Shown: one piece after another, positions 34,383 to 53,121 of the stretch
How the letters are laid out: every line of letters begins with the position of its first letter
Numbering within the stretch: position 1 is the first letter of the stretch
Assembly: GCF_002874775.1 (NCBI RefSeq)
Contig: NZ_CP020991.1
Coordinates: forward strand, 1,369,225 to 1,433,224
Direction of reading: 5' to 3'
From: Monoglobus pectinilyticus
Lineage (GTDB): Bacteria > Bacillota > Clostridia > Monoglobales > Monoglobaceae
DNA: 64,000 bases
Program-made: the position numbers and the translations under genes
The notes under the pieces: generated by a model
Told to the model about the DNA's origin: nothing
The model's database searches: none
The model's input: the letters and a program-made list of their open reading frames with translations, nothing else

Positions 34383-34388
34383 AATTAT

Positions 34389-34433
34389 GGCGTTTAATTC
34401 TGCATATGCCGGATTAAACGCCGTTTTATTTTT
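34389..34433 (+). terminator. Terminator after the M15 peptidase gene
   Basis: GGCGTTTAAT pairs with ATTAAACGCC across a 14-base loop, followed by GTTTTATTTTT. Confidence 0.9.
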
Positions 34434-34614
34434 AACATTTTGAGTTTTAAGTGAGAAAAGAATATGTAATTATTGTAAATTTTTTGTGCTGAGAATGTTA
34501 GTAATTTAGAGAATTGCCCGTAATCACGGCGATTTATTCAATTGTATAATTATGTACAGTTTTTTTTACATAACATACTATGATTTTGTGGCAATCTTTC
34601 AGTATAACAAAGAT

Positions 34615-34643
34615 TGATTTTGTCGTAAAACTGTGATAAAATA
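34615..34643 (+). promoter_or_regulatory. Promoter of the riboswitch-pectate lyase unit
   Basis: TTGATT (34615-34620), 17-base spacer, TAAAAT (34638-34643). Transcription would start close to 34650, just before the aptamer. Confidence 0.75.
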
Positions 34644-34654
34644 GATATGGTTTT

Positions 34655-34735
34655 AGGGAGTAGCATACAGATTATATCTGTTGCGGTTTTCGTCATCACG
34701 GTGCGGTCAGCACCCGGAGACTGCAGTCTTTTTTA
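34655..34735 (+). promoter_or_regulatory. yybP-ykoY-type (Mn2+) riboswitch aptamer
   Basis: GGGAGTAGC (34657-34665) is followed by an ACAGAT/ATCTGT hairpin, then TTGCGGTTTTCGTCATCACG and a GGTGC/GCACC hairpin. TTGCGGTTTTC (34682-34692) can pair along its length, with wobbles, with GGAGACTGCAG (34718-34728). The core blocks GGAGTAGC, TGCGGT and CGTCA.(A/C)ACG match, in order and spacing, the riboswitch before the ATPase at 53 kb. The outer P1 stem is not obvious, which lowers confidence. Confidence 0.62.
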
Positions 34736-34746
34736 TAGATTTGCGA

Positions 34747-34801
34747 GACTACAACTCAATGGGTGCCAAGAGTGGCGTTTATTGTGTTGTAGTCTTTTTT
34801 G
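34747..34801 (+). terminator. Intrinsic terminator between riboswitch and pectate lyase gene
   Basis: AGACTACAACTCAAT pairs with ATTGTGTTGTAGTCT, enclosing a second small GTGCCA/TGGCG hairpin, followed by TTTTTT. AGTCT at 34726-34730 could compete for the 5' arm, giving an antiterminator. It ends about 50 bases before the start codon. Confidence 0.85.
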
Positions 34802-34852
34802 GTACTGCTTTTTAAAATCCACATAATTAAATTTTACTTTATGGAGGTTAGT

Positions 34853-37852
34853 ATGAAAAAGTTTACATCACTGTTTTTAGCTATGGCTCTTGTTATGATA
34901 CCCCTTTTCGGTTGTTTTGGAACCGGATATGCGGAGCCTGAAAAAAGTGCAGTTTTAGAATCAGCAAAATTAGTGGCATTCCCTGGAGCAGAGGGCGGCG
35001 GAATGTATACTACAGGAGCGAGAGGGGACAGCTCTCCCGAGATTTATCATGTAACCAATCTAAACGACAGCGGCAGCGGCTCTTTGAGAGACGCAATATC
35101 GGAGCCGGGTAGAATAGTGGTTTTTGATGTTGCGGGAACAATAAATTTGACGAATTATCTTCGTTTCAGTCAGCCTAACATAACTGTTTTAGGACAGACT
35201 GCGCCGGGAGACGGCATATGTGTGTCCGGCGCTCCTACAACTATAAATGCGGACAATATAATTATCCGTTATATGCGTTTCAGAATGGGAGTATATGACG
35301 AGGCAAATAAAAAGTATGATGACGACGCTTTCGGCGGAATATCCCAGACCTCAGATTTGATTGTAGATCACAGCAGTATGAGCTGGTCTACTGACGAATG
35401 CGTTTCTGTATATGCGATTAAGAATTCCACCATACAATGGTGTATAATAACAGAACCTCTAAATACATCTATACACTACGAGGGGGGAAAACTCCAGCAG
35501 CATGGATATGGCGGAATATGGGGAGGGGTTAATTCTACATATCATCATAACCTAGTATCAAGCGCTAACAGCAGATTTCCGCGTGTCGGAACCTCCGCTA
35601 CAGTAAAATCGTATAAGAGCGAGCCGGATTCAAACAGTTTGGTTGACATAAGAAATAATATCTTTTATAATTGGCGTTCTAATACATCTTACGGCGGCGA
35701 AAATATGGTTAGGGTCAATCTTGTTAACAATTATTATAAGGAAGGACCCGCGAGCAGCAGTATTAAAAGATTCTATGAAATGTATGCTACTGAAAGCAAA
35801 AGCAACAGCAAGCATCCTATAGTTGGAGCCGGTACTGATTTGGCTATTGCGGGAAATTTCTATGACCCAAAGAAGAGCAGCACCACAGTTGATGAAATTA
35901 ATGCTGACAATACTTTGGGAGTTGCGCATTCAAAAGCTAAGACTTATAATATAGTGGAGTATAATGGTTCTGATGACCCGGAGGCAGAGTTCTCGCACAC
36001 TCAGTATATAAATGATTATCCGATAACAACCGATACAGCACAAGAGGCATACGATAAGGTTTTGGCTGGAGCCGGGGCAAATATAGTGCGTGACGATGTT
36101 GATAACCGTGCTGTAGCAAATGCGTCAGAAAGAACTTCTACGGTTGGGACAAATGGAATTATTGACTGGTCAGAATTAAAGACTATGGATAGATATGAGT
36201 ATAAGGGAACACCGAAAGCTGACAGCGATGGCGATGGAATACCGGACGACTGGGAGGACAGCCACAGACTTGATAAGAACAATCCGGCAGATTCAATGTA
36301 TTTTTCTTCAAATCCGGAGTATACAGGGTATTATAATATAGAAGTATATTCATTCGATATAGCTGGGGATGAGCCGTCTCCTACGATGACTCCGGCACCG
36401 ACTCTTGATCCGACAAAGCCAACTCCAACGCCTAAGCCGACGGCTAAACCTACGGCGGCTCCAACGGCGGCTCCAACACAAACGCCAACCCCAACTTCTC
36501 CTGCATATGATGCGGAAATAAACGTGTCCGGCGAGGGGTATGTTAAGCTTACGGATGCAGCTGGCGTTGAGTTTCCGAAAGCAAGGGAGATATATAAAAT
36601 AGATACTGCTGCTTCATATGAAAACGGTAAGACTGTTCAGGCTGGTGATGGTCTCAGTGTTGTGTTCGGAGAAGCAGACGATAAGGGCGGCACAAAAAAT
36701 GTGTTTACCACCGCACAGGTAGAACCTGTTGAAATCGACGGCGTAACATATACAGCAACGCTCACAGGTTCACAAAATGCAATGTATTATAGTGGTTCAG
36801 GAAGCAAAAACGGAACGTATGACAATCCGCCGAACGGAGGAGCTTTTTTGAAGTTTTCACCAAGTGAGACGGGACGGCTTCAACTGGCGATAAGCTGGAA
36901 CACTGCAAAACCGATGAATTTTGTCAGAGTAACTGAAAACGGTGTTCCGGGTGCGTATATGACAGACGCGCTGACCGGGGTTAACTATAAGGCGTATACC
37001 TCAAGCGGAGGCCAGAAAGATATGGTTTTGAATATTGATTTGGAAGCCGGAAGCACATATTATTTCTTTTTAAACGGTTCAAAACCACCGATATATGGAG
37101 TTAGCTATTCTGCGGATAATTCAAATAAGTATAGTATCGGTGAGAAGTCTGTGGTTTTAGTTGACGCAGTGCCGGGTATTGCAGGGCAGAACGCGCAGAT
37201 TACTATGCGTACGTCAAATGGCAATTCTGTAGTATATAACAATACGTTTGTTATGCCCAGTGAAAATATAGGTTTAGATGTTGTATTTAATGCTGAACCG
37301 GTGCCGACATCTCCTCCGACAGCGGAGCCGACGAATGCACCAACAGCAGAACCAACATCATCTCCGACCTCAAGCCCTACAAGTACGCCGGTACCTGAGC
37401 CCAGTGCCACTGCAGGTCCAACAAGTGAGCCGATTGCACCGCCAACGGCAGAGCCCACAAGTTCACCAACTGATGATCCGGGTTCGTCTCCTACAGTATC
37501 CCCTACTGCTGTTCCGTCATTTGTTCCGACTGCTACACCGGAAACAGAGCCGACAAATCCGCCGGCATCATCGGAGACACCAAAACCAAGCAGTTCGCCG
37601 AGCGGAATCTATTATCAAGAAGTTCCGGTAATAAACGGATTGAACGTGACAGCTGAAATAGTTAATAAAACTGATGATAATGGGGTTATGTTTATAGTAT
37701 GCTCTTATAATGATGCAGGGGATGTTTTAACTGACGCTGCAATTGAGATAATACCAAAATCAGATATACCGAAACGAGTATCAATAGATTTGAAAAAGGG
37801 CGGAAATATAAAAACATTTTTATGGTCCAGCGAAATGGTTCCGCAGGATTAA
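34853..37852 (+). CDS. Secreted multidomain pectate lyase (PL1-like)
   Basis: ATG 34853 follows GGAGG; the frame upstream runs into the terminator. The 999-residue product has a signal peptide (MKKFTSLFLAMALVMIPLFG) and a pectate-lyase beta-helix over ~residues 40-440: FPGAEGGGMYTTGARG, VTNLNDSGSGSLRDAIS, ITVLGQTAPGDGICVSG, NIIIRYMRFRMG. Then come a calcium-binding DSDGDGIPDDWEDSH motif, a Pro/Thr linker, a ~240-residue beta domain that could bind carbohydrate, a second Pro/Thr/Ser linker and a C-terminal module (GIYYQEVPVINGLNV...KTFLWSSEMVPQ). No SLH or sortase signal is seen. It cleaves polygalacturonate by beta-elimination. Confidence 0.92.
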   Translation: MKKFTSLFLAMALVMIPLFGCFGTGYAEPEKSAVLESAKLVAFPGAEGGGMYTTGARGDSSPEIYHVTNLNDSGSGSLRDAISEPGRIVVFDVAGTINLTNYLRFSQPNITVLGQTAPGDGICVSGAPTTINADNIIIRYMRFRMGVYDEANKKYDDDAFGGISQTSDLIVDHSSMSWSTDECVSVYAIKNSTIQWCIITEPLNTSIHYEGGKLQQHGYGGIWGGVNSTYHHNLVSSANSRFPRVGTSATVKSYKSEPDSNSLVDIRNNIFYNWRSNTSYGGENMVRVNLVNNYYKEGPASSSIKRFYEMYATESKSNSKHPIVGAGTDLAIAGNFYDPKKSSTTVDEINADNTLGVAHSKAKTYNIVEYNGSDDPEAEFSHTQYINDYPITTDTAQEAYDKVLAGAGANIVRDDVDNRAVANASERTSTVGTNGIIDWSELKTMDRYEYKGTPKADSDGDGIPDDWEDSHRLDKNNPADSMYFSSNPEYTGYYNIEVYSFDIAGDEPSPTMTPAPTLDPTKPTPTPKPTAKPTAAPTAAPTQTPTPTSPAYDAEINVSGEGYVKLTDAAGVEFPKAREIYKIDTAASYENGKTVQAGDGLSVVFGEADDKGGTKNVFTTAQVEPVEIDGVTYTATLTGSQNAMYYSGSGSKNGTYDNPPNGGAFLKFSPSETGRLQLAISWNTAKPMNFVRVTENGVPGAYMTDALTGVNYKAYTSSGGQKDMVLNIDLEAGSTYYFFLNGSKPPIYGVSYSADNSNKYSIGEKSVVLVDAVPGIAGQNAQITMRTSNGNSVVYNNTFVMPSENIGLDVVFNAEPVPTSPPTAEPTNAPTAEPTSSPTSSPTSTPVPEPSATAGPTSEPIAPPTAEPTSSPTDDPGSSPTVSPTAVPSFVPTATPETEPTNPPASSETPKPSSSPSGIYYQEVPVINGLNVTAEIVNKTDDNGVMFIVCSYNDAGDVLTDAAIEIIPKSDIPKRVSIDLKKGGNIKTFLWSSEMVPQD

Positions 37853-38426
37853 CAAAGGTATCCAAATCTAGCGATAATGGAATTGTGTGTGTTATGTGGC
37901 CAGGCATAGAAAATTTCAATAATCAAGATATTGAAGTTAACTATTCTGAAAAAGTAGGATTTTATAAATTTTTATTACTATATAACATAGACCATGCACG
38001 AAACAATTTGCATAAATAAAAAAAGTTTGTCTTTACAGGACGGCGGAATTATATGTGTTTCTGAAATAGCGTGAAATGCAAATCATATATAGGGATAGGA
38101 AAAAACAAATCAGAGACTACTATGAAACGAGTATCAATAGAATTGAAATATTAATTTATCAAAATGGTTAGTGAAATTATTATAAAAGATATAAAAGTAT
38201 GCCGTTTATTAAAGATGAATTAGATATATGTTTTTATATTAAGGTGAGACAGCTGTATGTACTGCTATAGAAAAATACTAATTAAATTTAATATAACAAA
38301 TATAAATAGAATTGAAAAAGAGATAGGTTTTAAGACAGTTTTATATATTGAAGATTAAAAATAGAAAACAGTAAAAAATATTTGGCTTTGGCCATGTTAT
38401 AAAAAGAATAGTTTGGGGGCTTTACT
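37853..38426. other. AT-rich gap between the two pectate lyase genes
   Basis: No gene, clear terminator or riboswitch is seen. A degenerate echo of the upstream gene's 3' end occurs at 38120-38145 (TGAAACGAGTATCAATAGA, also at 37773), suggesting a short duplicated remnant. Confidence 0.5.
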
Positions 38427-50326: not shown

Positions 50327-52924
50327 TTATCTGTTGCCTAAAAAGTATCTTATGTTTTTATATATTTGAATTATCACAGTTGGCAATACTGCGAAAAATA
50401 TTATTTCGACTATCATTGACGGTCCTAGCAGTGAAATAGAGAACAAATCATGGATAGGTGTAAAAAACAATACGGCGCTGAGGAAACATACTCCGGCGGC
50501 AAACGCCACTATACTAAATGGGTTCGAACCGAATCCAAGAACGTTTATGGGCTTGCTTCCGCGGCAGTTAAAGCAGTGGAAGAGCCTACCCAGACACAGA
50601 GCGCTGAAAGCCATTGTTCCGGCTGTTTCTGCTCCATGTTCCAGCCCTATATAATACGCCGCTATTGTTGAAATAGATATAAGAATCCCTATAAAACTTG
50701 TGTTTATAATCATCTTTTTGTCTAGTATGCTGTCGTTTATTCCTCTGGGTTTTTCATTAAGCAGGTTTCTGTCTGGTTTTTCCATACTTATAGCTATTGC
50801 CGGAAGTGAATCTGTTAAAAGGTTTATAAATAATAGCTGAACGGCCGTAAACGGAGCGGACAGCCCCATTATTACGCAGTACAATACGGCTATTATTCCT
50901 GCAAGGTTACCTGTTAAAAGAAACATGATACTGTTTTTTATATTAGTGTATATGCTTCTGCCGCTGGCAACCGACCTGACAATAGTAGCAAAATTGTCGT
51001 CCGCCAAAACCATTGAAGCAGCGTCCTTGCTTACCTCTGTTCCGGTTATTCCCATAGCTACGCCAACGTCAGCCTTCTTTAATGCAGGTGCGTCGTTTAC
51101 CCCGTCGCCGGTCATCGCAACTATGTGTCCCAATTCCTGCCACAGTGTTACTATTCTTATCTTGTGTGCCGGGCTGACCCTTGCATATACACTGACCTTA
51201 GGCAGCATTTCCGAAAGTTCGCTGTCACTTATCATTTCAAGTTCTGCCCCGTCCAGAGCCAAATCACCGTCTTTAAAAATCCCAACCTCACGCGCAACTG
51301 CAATAGCTGTCATCTTATGGTCTCCGGTAATCATGACCGGCTTTATTCCGGCGCTGATACAATCGGCTACAGCCGCTTTGCTTTCCTCTCTGGGCGGGTC
51401 GGTCATTGCACATAATCCAATAAATGTGTATTTATTTTCATCATTTTCATTAATATCTGTTTTATTGCTAAACTCACGTTTTGCAAAACATAATACGCGC
51501 ATTCCGCGCTCAGAGTAGAAGACGTTCATATGTACTATTTCTTTTTTGTCCTCGTTGGTTATATCGCGTACGCGTCCGTTTACTTCAATTGATGTCAGCC
51601 GGTCAAGAAAATTATCAATCGCGCCTTTTGTCAGCATAGTGGGCTTTCCATTTATTTTGTGTAGGGTGCTCATCAGCTTCCTGTCACTGTCAAATGGGAT
51701 TTCTGCCAGCCTCGGATATGCGGAACGTACTTTGTCGCATCGTTCCTTACCGAAAAACTCGATCAAAGCTGTTTCTGTCGGATCACCGATAGATTCACCG
51801 TCGGCAGAGAAAGCTGCGTCATTACACAAAAGCATCGGGAGAATAAGATTGTCATTACTGTCAAAACGCTCAGCCGGGTGGCTGACTCCATCTCTGTAAA
51901 TTTCTCTGACCTTCATTTTATTTTGAGTTAAAGTTCCCGTTTTGTCAGAGCATATAACGCTGACGCATCCCAGTCCCTCAACTGCCTTCAAGTCTCTGAT
52001 AATGGCATTCTGCTTAGCCATTTTTTGAGTTCCTATAGCAAGCGAGATTGTTACTATTGAACTTAACGCCTCAGGTATTGCGGCAACAGCAAGAGCCACG
52101 GCAAACATCATAGCGTCGAGAATTTCTTCGCCGCGCAGAATTGACAGTGCCATAACCGCCAGACATATGATAACAATTGCAATTGTAAGTTTTTTAGAAA
52201 AGTTTTCTAAGCTCTTCTGGAGCGGCGTCTTCTTTGACTCCGCCTTGTTTATCATGGTCGCTATATTGCCTATTTCAGTTTCCATACCGGTAGCGGTTAC
52301 CACCACAACACCGCGTCCTCCTGTGACAAGAGAACCTGAATAAACCATGTTCACACGGTCTCCCAAAACTATTTCTTTACCATCAGAGTCCAAAACCTTG
52401 TCTGATTTGAGAACGCTGTCGCTCTCTCCGGTCAGAGAACTTTCGTTAACAAGCAAACCGGCGGCTTTTATAACTCTTCCATCGGCAGACGCGACAGCGC
52501 CGGCTTCCAGAATAAGTATGTCCCCTTTTACGACCTCTCGGGCAGGGATTTCACAGACATTTCCGTCCCTTATTACTTTTGCGTGGGGAGCAGACATATT
52601 TTTCAGCGCAGCCAGGGACTTTTCAGCTTTAAAGTGCTCCACCGTTCCTATTATACTGTTCATCACTATAACAAGAAGAATAACAGCGGCGCTGTCGCCG
52701 TTGCCGGTGAGTATAGAAACGGCTGAGCATACAAGCAGAATAATTACCAGCAAGTCTTCAAACTGGGAGAAGAAGACCTCTAATACATTTTTTTTCTTTT
52801 CTTCTTTAATTTCATTCGGACCGTTTTTCAAAAGCCTCTCCCTGGCTTTTTCCTGCGTCAGACCCTTTTCACTTGTCCGCAAGTTTTCAAGGACGGCGCC
52901 GGATGTCATCTCAAAAAACCTCAT
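50327..52924 (-). CDS. P-type cation-transporting ATPase, Ca2+/Mn2+ (PMCA/SPCA-like)
   Basis: ATG 52924 follows GGAGG; the frame upstream has weaker options. The 865-residue protein has the P-type features: LTGES, AAIPEAL in TM4 (cation site), ICSDKTGTLTQNKM with phosphorylated Asp327, MLTKGAIDNFLDRL in the nucleotide domain and VAMTGDGVNDAPALKKADVGVAMG. N- and C-terminal cation-ATPase domains are both present. It lies directly behind a Mn2+ riboswitch, so manganese export is the likely main job, perhaps with calcium as a second substrate. About ten helices. Confidence 0.95.
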   Translation of the reverse strand: MRFFEMTSGAVLENLRTSEKGLTQEKARERLLKNGPNEIKEEKKKNVLEVFFSQFEDLLVIILLVCSAVSILTGNGDSAAVILLVIVMNSIIGTVEHFKAEKSLAALKNMSAPHAKVIRDGNVCEIPAREVVKGDILILEAGAVASADGRVIKAAGLLVNESSLTGESDSVLKSDKVLDSDGKEIVLGDRVNMVYSGSLVTGGRGVVVVTATGMETEIGNIATMINKAESKKTPLQKSLENFSKKLTIAIVIICLAVMALSILRGEEILDAMMFAVALAVAAIPEALSSIVTISLAIGTQKMAKQNAIIRDLKAVEGLGCVSVICSDKTGTLTQNKMKVREIYRDGVSHPAERFDSNDNLILPMLLCNDAAFSADGESIGDPTETALIEFFGKERCDKVRSAYPRLAEIPFDSDRKLMSTLHKINGKPTMLTKGAIDNFLDRLTSIEVNGRVRDITNEDKKEIVHMNVFYSERGMRVLCFAKREFSNKTDINENDENKYTFIGLCAMTDPPREESKAAVADCISAGIKPVMITGDHKMTAIAVAREVGIFKDGDLALDGAELEMISDSELSEMLPKVSVYARVSPAHKIRIVTLWQELGHIVAMTGDGVNDAPALKKADVGVAMGITGTEVSKDAASMVLADDNFATIVRSVASGRSIYTNIKNSIMFLLTGNLAGIIAVLYCVIMGLSAPFTAVQLLFINLLTDSLPAIAISMEKPDRNLLNEKPRGINDSILDKKMIINTSFIGILISISTIAAYYIGLEHGAETAGTMAFSALCLGRLFHCFNCRGSKPINVLGFGSNPFSIVAFAAGVCFLSAVLFFTPIHDLFSISLLGPSMIVEIIFFAVLPTVIIQIYKNIRYFLGNR

Positions 52925-52961
52925 ATAACATTCCTCCATATAAAATTTTATGTTGTGCAAA

Positions 52962-53006
52962 TAAAAAAAGACCTCTATTACACAACATTAGTGTAATAAA
53001 AGTCTT
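52962..53006 (-). terminator. Riboswitch expression-platform terminator
   Basis: On the minus strand AAGACTTTTATTACAC pairs with GTGTAATAGAGGTCTT around TAATGTT, followed by TTTTTTT. The CTTTTATT in its 5' arm could instead pair with AATAAAG at the 5' side of the aptamer (P1). Confidence 0.88.
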
Positions 53007-53112
53007 GCTGTTGGCGAAATATTCATTAGCCCAAGTGCGGCACGGACCGATTTACAGTCGTATTGACGACACCGCACGCCTATGCTGAAAGCACAGACCG
53101 CTACTCCCCTTT
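53007..53112 (-). promoter_or_regulatory. yybP-ykoY manganese riboswitch aptamer
   Basis: On the minus strand: AAAGGGGAGTAGC (53100-53112), a TGCTTTCAGCA hairpin, GTGCGGTGTCGTCAATACG (53062-53078 region) and a closing CCGCAC, then CTTTTATT to close P1. This is the classical yybP-ykoY consensus (GGGGAGUAGC and CGUCAA loops). It senses Mn2+ and typically raises expression of exporters. Confidence 0.9.
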
Positions 53113-53121
53113 ATTGACTAC

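Follow-up and report, generated by a model that had tools for sequence, protein, structure and literature searches.

The locus considered here raises the question of whether a riboswitch of the yybP-ykoY (Mn2+) family can stand in front of a gene for a secreted pectate lyase. We analysed a stretch of 64,000 nucleotides of the Monoglobus pectinilyticus genome (the window), in which the region 34383–34853 contains, in order, a hairpin with a U run, a promoter, an aptamer, a terminator and a ribosome-binding site, followed by the lyase gene (Table 1). By the sequence and structure tests made, with the exception of the Rfam score, the leader is a member of the family with an unusual target, and it is kept in eight genomes of one genus. 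We put the probability that it is a yybP-ykoY-family (Mn2+) riboswitch controlling transcription of the lyase at roughly 75%.

Table 1. Features of the lyase locus and of the ATPase locus at 53 kb, in window coordinates.
Feature	Position	Strand	Basis or remark
Hairpin with U run, 3′ of the upstream gene	34390–34435		by eye
Sigma-70-type promoter, TTGATT-17-TAAAAT	34614–34642	+	predicted start at about 34649, the 5′ end of P1
Complete predicted yybP-ykoY-type leader (aptamer with P1, and terminator), behind the promoter	34649–34800	+	
P1 (switch helix), 5′ strand	34649–34656	+	R1 alignment, unconstrained fold, covariation with A3 columns 142 and 144
GGGAGUAGC: loop L1 and 5′ strand of P1.2	34656–34664	+	
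P2 hairpin	34667–34681	+	fold and pair counts
P3 with loop L3 (within CGUCAUCAC)	34682–34725	+	R1 alignment, folds, pair counts, invariant positions
Short P4	34726–34740	+	fold; helix 6 in pair counts
3′ strand of P1.2, GCGAGAC, 3′ strand of P1 (34749–34756)	34742–34756	+	alignment, folds, covariation, invariant positions
Intrinsic terminator	hairpin 34747–34794, U tract 34795–34800	+	full-length folds, covariation
Ribosome-binding site GGAGG	34843–34847	+	
Pectate lyase, 999 aa	34853–37852	+	N-terminal signal-like sequence by eye
P-type cation ATPase	50327–52930	−	Ca2+-type by NCBIfam, below equivalog cut-offs
Second yybP-ykoY-type RNA, 5′ of the P-type ATPase	52993–53121	−	R1 32.1 bits, E = 5.9e-6; fold

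The downstream gene encodes a pectate lyase, as the initial annotation proposed; by eye its N-terminus is signal-like, and its catalytic part resembles PDB entry 9buj, "Pectate lyase" (E = 8.1e-53). The protein scores 83.3 bits with the NCBIfam model PelZ, below the model cut-off of 840, and no Pfam family exceeds its cut-off. The closest lyase among named records, 64% identical, is found in "Candidatus Monoglobus merdigallinarum". The next genes on the same strand encode a second pectate-lyase-like protein, a nitroreductase and gyrase A; since none of them is a metal transporter, a transporter nearby cannot explain the leader. The genome that contains the window has 31 matches to the lyase protein but only two places of the strict core pattern, one in front of this lyase and one in front of the P-type ATPase, so the switch would serve one lyase of many.

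The sequence elements claimed for the leader are in place. The promoter has a counterpart, TTGNNN-17-TAWAAT, closely 5′ of the aptamer in all eight lyase leaders of the genus; promoter-like sites on the two strands number 5 compared with 2.3 expected, and in a single sequence such a site could arise by chance. The motifs TGCGGT, CGTCA and GGTGC/GCACC lie where they had been reported, the last of these forming the upper part of P3 at 34700–34714. The intrinsic terminator appears as a hairpin with a U tract in full-length folds, and the hairpin covaries over the eight leaders; a simple terminator scan reported none at 34747–34800, perhaps owing to a mismatch in the stem. GGAGG and an ATG are also found in all eight leaders, with the start codon 169–197 bases after the start of GGGAGTAGC. 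This latter sequence occurs twice in the window, at 34656–34664 (+) and 53100–53108 (−), compared with 0.21 occurrences expected, and two of 100 shuffled sequences contain it twice. The ATPase leader resembles the lyase leader in its core and in its terminator logic and differs from it in having a conventional target. The earlier claim that the two RNAs share the same blocks stands for GGGAGTAGC but not for GGTGC/GCACC, which belongs to upper P3 and is not the same block as GTGCGG/CCGCAC, found in the lower P3 of the 53 kb RNA. On a possible origin of the lyase leader as a copy of the nearby ATPase leader, the scores point in two directions: outside its own group, the best partners of the window lyase leader are leaders from other genera, and those of the G008 lyase leader are the genus's two ATPase leaders.

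The fold of positions 34645–34810 has a z-score of −6.47, and none of 200 shuffled sequences folds as well. When the transcript ends before the 3′ strand of the terminator, the unconstrained fold of the window aptamer (−31.9 kcal/mol) comprises P1, P1.2, P2, P3 with L3, and P4, and its four-way junction of P1–P4 is backed by pair counts over the eight leaders. The caveat that P1 is not evident and that the RNA may be a degenerate member can therefore be withdrawn: P1 is present in this fold, with seven of the eight pairs between 34649–34656 and 34749–34756 formed, and it overlaps the terminator. The one broken pair is U34653 × C34752, and in columns 35/142 of A3 the window is the sole unpaired row of eight in the register used. 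Among the four leaders of the G002 type the folds agree in outline; in G003, G006 and G009 the leaders retain P2 and P3, with a different outer pairing in the minimum-energy fold. The terminator forms in all eight leaders when they are folded through. The upper P3 stem is GGUGC/GCACC in the window; three genomes have GGCGC/GCGCC, and the remaining four have GGAAUU paired with AAUUCC or with a similar sequence.

Over the eight leaders, 93.9% of the aptamer pairs and 98.7% of the terminator pairs are formed, compared with 30–46% and 28–52%, respectively, for slid partners. None of 500 shuffles, for aptamer or terminator, reached the observed percentage of pairing, count of double-change cells or covariation score. 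The number of double-change pairs was reached in 72 of 500 shuffles for the aptamer and in one for the terminator, and the number of further pair types in 500 and 454, so that shuffles are not exceeded in two of the five aptamer measures and in one of the five terminator measures. P1 and the terminator are mutually exclusive through the shared strand 34749–34756, where covariation is double: in columns 142 and 144 of A3, C/U changes are matched by G/A both in the 5′ strand of P1 and in the 3′ strand of the terminator. Such matching of changes in both alternative partners would be expected of a working switch. In the window leader the terminator state (−57.1 kcal/mol) lies 15 kcal/mol below the best P1-forced state (−41.9 kcal/mol), and the ON state would therefore need kinetic help from the metal.

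Family membership was assessed with a covariance model, R1, made from an alignment (A1) of 16 leaders from the 21 loci L007–L027, none of which precedes a lyase. Left out of A1 were L008 (with a long P4), L012 (a false candidate) and L017, L020 and L026 (without the landmark GGAGTAG). The genes after the 16 leaders are 13 transport genes by eye, a P-type ATPase (L025) and, in two cases, an M48 membrane protease (L015 and L027). The alignment fits the family structure, with 94.7% of cells paired and 20 of 23 pairs changed on both sides, compared with 29–44% in slid controls. Run on nine sources without any A1 row (87 kb), R1 gives the window lyase leader 44.9 bits (E = 3e-9), inside the range of 42.4–61.3 bits of the left-out known members (L026, 61.3; L020 and L017, 59.7 each, all three with a P-type ATPase; L008, 42.4, with MntP by eye). 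The lyase leaders of three other genomes score 37.9–39.9 bits, and the full set of eight in the genus spans 31.4–44.9 bits. All 16 positions that are invariant in A1, located by landmark strings, are present in all eight lyase leaders. A whole-genome R1 search of the window's genome does not list the lyase leader; this means little, since scoring covered only 150 of 686 first-look candidates, and the leader is found when it is searched directly. Together with the four-way junction and the presence in 8 of 12 genomes of the genus, these results agree with the yybP-ykoY-like assignment in the initial annotation, and the lyase leader is almost certainly a family member with the architecture of a switch.

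The Rfam score is the exception. The window contains no gathering match to Rfam, and the proposed scan of the lyase leader with RF00080 (gathering cut-off 45 bits) gave no match at E ≤ 10, as was also the case for the 53 kb leader and the whole genome. No match exceeded the cut-off in 60 relatives in a loose first look, or in 291 genomes of the host's class under stricter filters with at most nine candidates scored per genome; two control genomes outside the 291 did yield matches over the cut-off. Run directly on eight test loci, six of them with non-lyase members, RF00080 gave no gathering match. Its weaker matches within the class are plainly exporter leaders, apart from L012, which sits inside a coding gene, has no R1 match at E ≤ 1 and was rejected as a member. 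Because the exporter leaders of the class likewise score below the cut-off, we read the miss as a limit of the model and not as a lack of family features, and RF00080 was set aside as a judge. The current Rfam model thus misses members in this bacterial class. The best Rfam match by E-value, a microRNA precursor family (E = 0.0038, 34736–34800), is essentially the terminator hairpin and was discarded.

The lyase leader and the RF00080 family have in common L1 (GGGAGUAGC), L3 with its invariant CA, GG, AGAC, the four-way junction and a P1 that overlaps an intrinsic terminator, and they differ in the target, which here is a secreted polysaccharide lyase. Just before L3, most R1 rows have a G–C or G–U pair; at this place the lyase leaders carry U or C opposite A or G. 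The same logic is described for the yoaB leader of L. lactis, a transcriptional Mn2+ ON switch in which the 3′ segment of P1.1 lies within the terminator and competes with it, and Mn2+ stabilises P1.1 and brings about antitermination (PMC11087558). The target of that leader is a Mn2+ exporter and its ligand was tested, whereas the target here is an extracellular enzyme, and we infer both the Mn2+ ligand and the ON direction from the family. In the proposed mechanism, RNA polymerase would start at about 34649, and a divalent metal, most likely Mn2+, bound in the L1–L3 pocket would hold P1 shut, which would occupy the 5′ strand of the terminator and let transcription run on into the lyase gene. 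When no metal is bound, the shared strand would join the 34747–34794 hairpin and transcription would stop at the U tract. Observed here are the component parts, the order in which they lie, and the helices that exclude one another, with their covariation.

The metal site of the L. lactis RNA, as reported in PMC9190785, consists of G9, U39, C40, A41, U44 and C45, with the invariant A41 giving its N7 to Mn2+, and in the X. oryzae RNA the conserved A10 of L1 makes an A-minor contact and an A48U mutant loses the stably docked state (PMC6754395). Judged by these residues, L1 and L3 are conserved in the lyase leader and include the counterpart of the invariant metal-binding adenosine. By alignment, the equivalents of the L. 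lactis site are G34658, U34693, C34694, A34695, A34698 (replacing U44) and C34699, A34659 corresponds to A10, and A34695 aligns with the invariant Mn2+-binding adenosine (A41/A48). The numbering (G34658 as G9, A34659 as A10) is deduced from these two papers and the L. lactis sequence. An A in the place of U44 is also found in the exporter leaders L019, L021 and L024. With the site residues intact, Mn2+ is a reasonable and probable ligand of the lyase leader, and pectin breakdown may reasonably be expected to follow metal status.

A DNA similarity search found the leader in 3 of the 11 other genomes of the genus. The core pattern (GGGAGTARY, a gap and TCATNACGG) occurs a single time in each of 8 of the 12 genomes of the genus, which are 8 of the 9 of high quality, compared with none for its reversed control, and all eight places are directly 5′ of a match to the lyase protein. 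A looser pattern over the family was in many genomes about as frequent as its reversed control and was left unused. Four of the 12 genomes have no match to the core pattern. One of them, G007 (94% complete), carries a decayed copy at positions 1340–1475 of L043 that keeps the terminator and part of P3 and has lost L1, P1, P2 and the promoter; the other three are 74–88% complete.

Among 23 lyase catalytic parts of the genus placed in a tree, those of the two lyases in the window form one group (100/97). The RNA stands 5′ of the first type of a tandem lyase pair in G002, G005, G008 and G010, and in the other three of these the first-type lyase shares 91% identity with that of G008. In G003, G006 and G009 the RNA stands inside the pair, 5′ of the second type, and the first type upstream has none. 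In view of the tree we rejected a constant association of the RNA with one and the same lyase, as these three genomes have the other paralogue behind it. Because the RNA precedes different members of the pair, there has been at least one change in either the arrangement of the two lyases or the position of the RNA, and each time a lyase has remained directly behind the RNA. The RNA thus goes with the tandem lyase pair and is not tied to one orthologous gene, a result that weakens an association with one gene, strengthens an association with a lyase and leaves the probabilities given here as they were. At 17 further lyase loci, two of them from "Candidatus Monoglobus merdigallinarum", R1 found no match better than E = 1.8.

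The targets of canonical members were surveyed with a pattern that has 88 places in 393 genomes of the class, of which 79 were examined; the nine others were already part of the analysis, as eight loci of the class and the ATPase leader of the window. R1 matched 74 of the 79 at E ≤ 1, 73 of them with at least 30 bits, and L167 (22.2 bits, 5′ of an ATPase) and the five places without an R1 match were dropped. The downstream gene, defined as the longest open reading frame starting 60–700 bases after L1, was identified with phmmer seeds. One of the 73 leaders, at a contig end, has no such frame, and the remaining 72 all precede transport genes (P-type ATPase, 32; MntP, 23; ABC ATP-binding, 6; sodium/calcium exchanger, 5; OAD beta-type, 3; GDT1, 2; TerC, 1). 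There is no secreted enzyme among these 72, but the pattern demands a G before the L3 block that lyase leaders lack, and it cannot find leaders of their kind. Targets other than transport genes exist, as L015 and L027 show with their M48 membrane proteases. Within the reach of a pattern blind to lyase-type leaders, the survey therefore supports the statement that the family is known for metal exporters and membrane proteins and not for lyases, and a secreted enzyme is an unusual target. An indirect precedent for a link between the family and secreted enzymes is the riboswitch-controlled MeeY of B. subtilis, whose part in Mn2+ export supports the metalation of extracytoplasmic enzymes (PMC12096827). 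A search of 5.39 million papers, which cover the subscription literature in part, returned no paper naming both "yybP-ykoY" and "pectate lyase". In the same collection, "Monoglobus" and "riboswitch" occurred together in one paper, on cocoa polyphenols.

The observations could be read in other ways. An ordinary attenuator hairpin with an accidental GGGAGTAGC would account for the lack of an RF00080 match, and the shuffled sequences with two copies show that the motif can recur, but the R1 E-value, the recurrence in eight genomes and the covariation refute such a chance similarity in practice and leave it a negligible probability. It is also quite improbable that the leader is a relic, transplanted from a metal transporter, whose aptamer no longer switches and which acts as a fixed attenuator only. 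The remnant in G007 shows that the aptamer can decay, and the missing RF00080 score would suit a relic too; against this stand the 16 of 16 invariant positions and the covarying helices in eight leaders, and the double constraint on columns 142 and 144 would be unexpected in a relic.

A reading that we consider unlikely, though less so than a relic, retains the RNA architecture and the switch and supposes another divalent ligand, with Ca2+ the obvious candidate. Pectate forms gels as its Ca2+ salt, pectate lyases usually depend on Ca2+, and the sister RNA at 53 kb is located 5′ of a Ca2+-type ATPase. The mgtA aptamer, in the cited work on Streptococcus, folds with Ca2+ or Mn2+ at physiological Mg2+ (PMC9495176), and another review considers it probable that certain yybP variants respond to divalent ions other than Mn2+ (PMC7266159). 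The Mn2+-selecting adenosine and the remaining invariant positions are, however, unchanged in the lyase leader, and its L3 sequence CAUCACGG is identical to that of the P-type-ATPase leader L024. Bacterial cytosolic Ca2+ is kept low, which also counts against Ca2+ as the ligand.

What purpose a Mn2+ riboswitch, the reading we prefer, could serve in front of this gene is a matter of speculation: the cell might read metal that is freed from or bound to pectin, or it might make the enzyme when the enzyme's metal is available. A more specific scenario, which we find doubtful, is that of a substrate sensor by proxy, where pectin carries Ca2+ and Mn2+, its digestion would raise the divalent metal in the cell, and the RNA would respond with more pectate lyase. 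If true, the result would be a loop of positive feed-forward: a riboswitch for metal would drive a programme of carbohydrate degradation and not the export of metal.

That seven related genomes also carry this switch before a lyase of this kind suggests that pectin breakdown is tied to metal status. If our main reading is correct, a very common riboswitch class would extend from metal transport to a secreted enzyme of plant-cell-wall feeding. This would bear on the yybP-type RNAs that precede genes not readily explained by Mn2+ sensing, a question raised in PMC7266159, and pectin-degrading gut bacteria would be a place to ask why a metal riboswitch precedes a lyase.

Genuine yybP-ykoY-type leaders are common in the genomes of the class Clostridia, despite the absence of any match above the 45-bit cut-off of the RF00080 model (Rfam 15; 177 positions) across the 291 class genomes searched.

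In three Monoglobus genomes (G003, G006, and G009), the RNA is situated between two tandem pectate lyases and, as judged from a tree in which loci L044, L048, and L054 were compared with L058, L056, and L045, lies upstream of the other paralogue. Either the order of the lyases or the location of the RNA has changed in these tandem pairs. In the window, the two pectate lyase genes are separated by approximately 570 bases (37853–38426) without a clear gene.

A decayed version of the lyase leader is seen upstream of a pectate lyase in a fourth Monoglobus genome, G007. This remnant retains the terminator and part of P3, while L1, P1, P2, and the promoter are missing, and represents a natural loss of the switch.

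Leaders in extracted loci and the genes downstream
Locus	Genome	Coordinates	Feature	Downstream gene
L015	G211	1531-1642	yybP-ykoY-type leader	M48-family membrane protease
L027	G211	1498-1612	yybP-ykoY-type leader	M48-family membrane protease
L043	G007	1340-1475	decayed lyase leader	pectate lyase

Among other leaders in the class, scored with a covariance model built from 16 non-lyase leaders, six precede an ABC ATP-binding protein (L173, L175, L176, L177, L179, and L180; 44–59 bits) and three a Na+-transporting decarboxylase beta-subunit-like protein (L135, L184, and L194; 39–45 bits), targets that look unusual for a Mn2+ switch. Besides the pectate lyase, the M48 membrane protease, HtpX-like on visual inspection, is a further non-transport target of yybP-ykoY-type RNA (two leaders, one genome).
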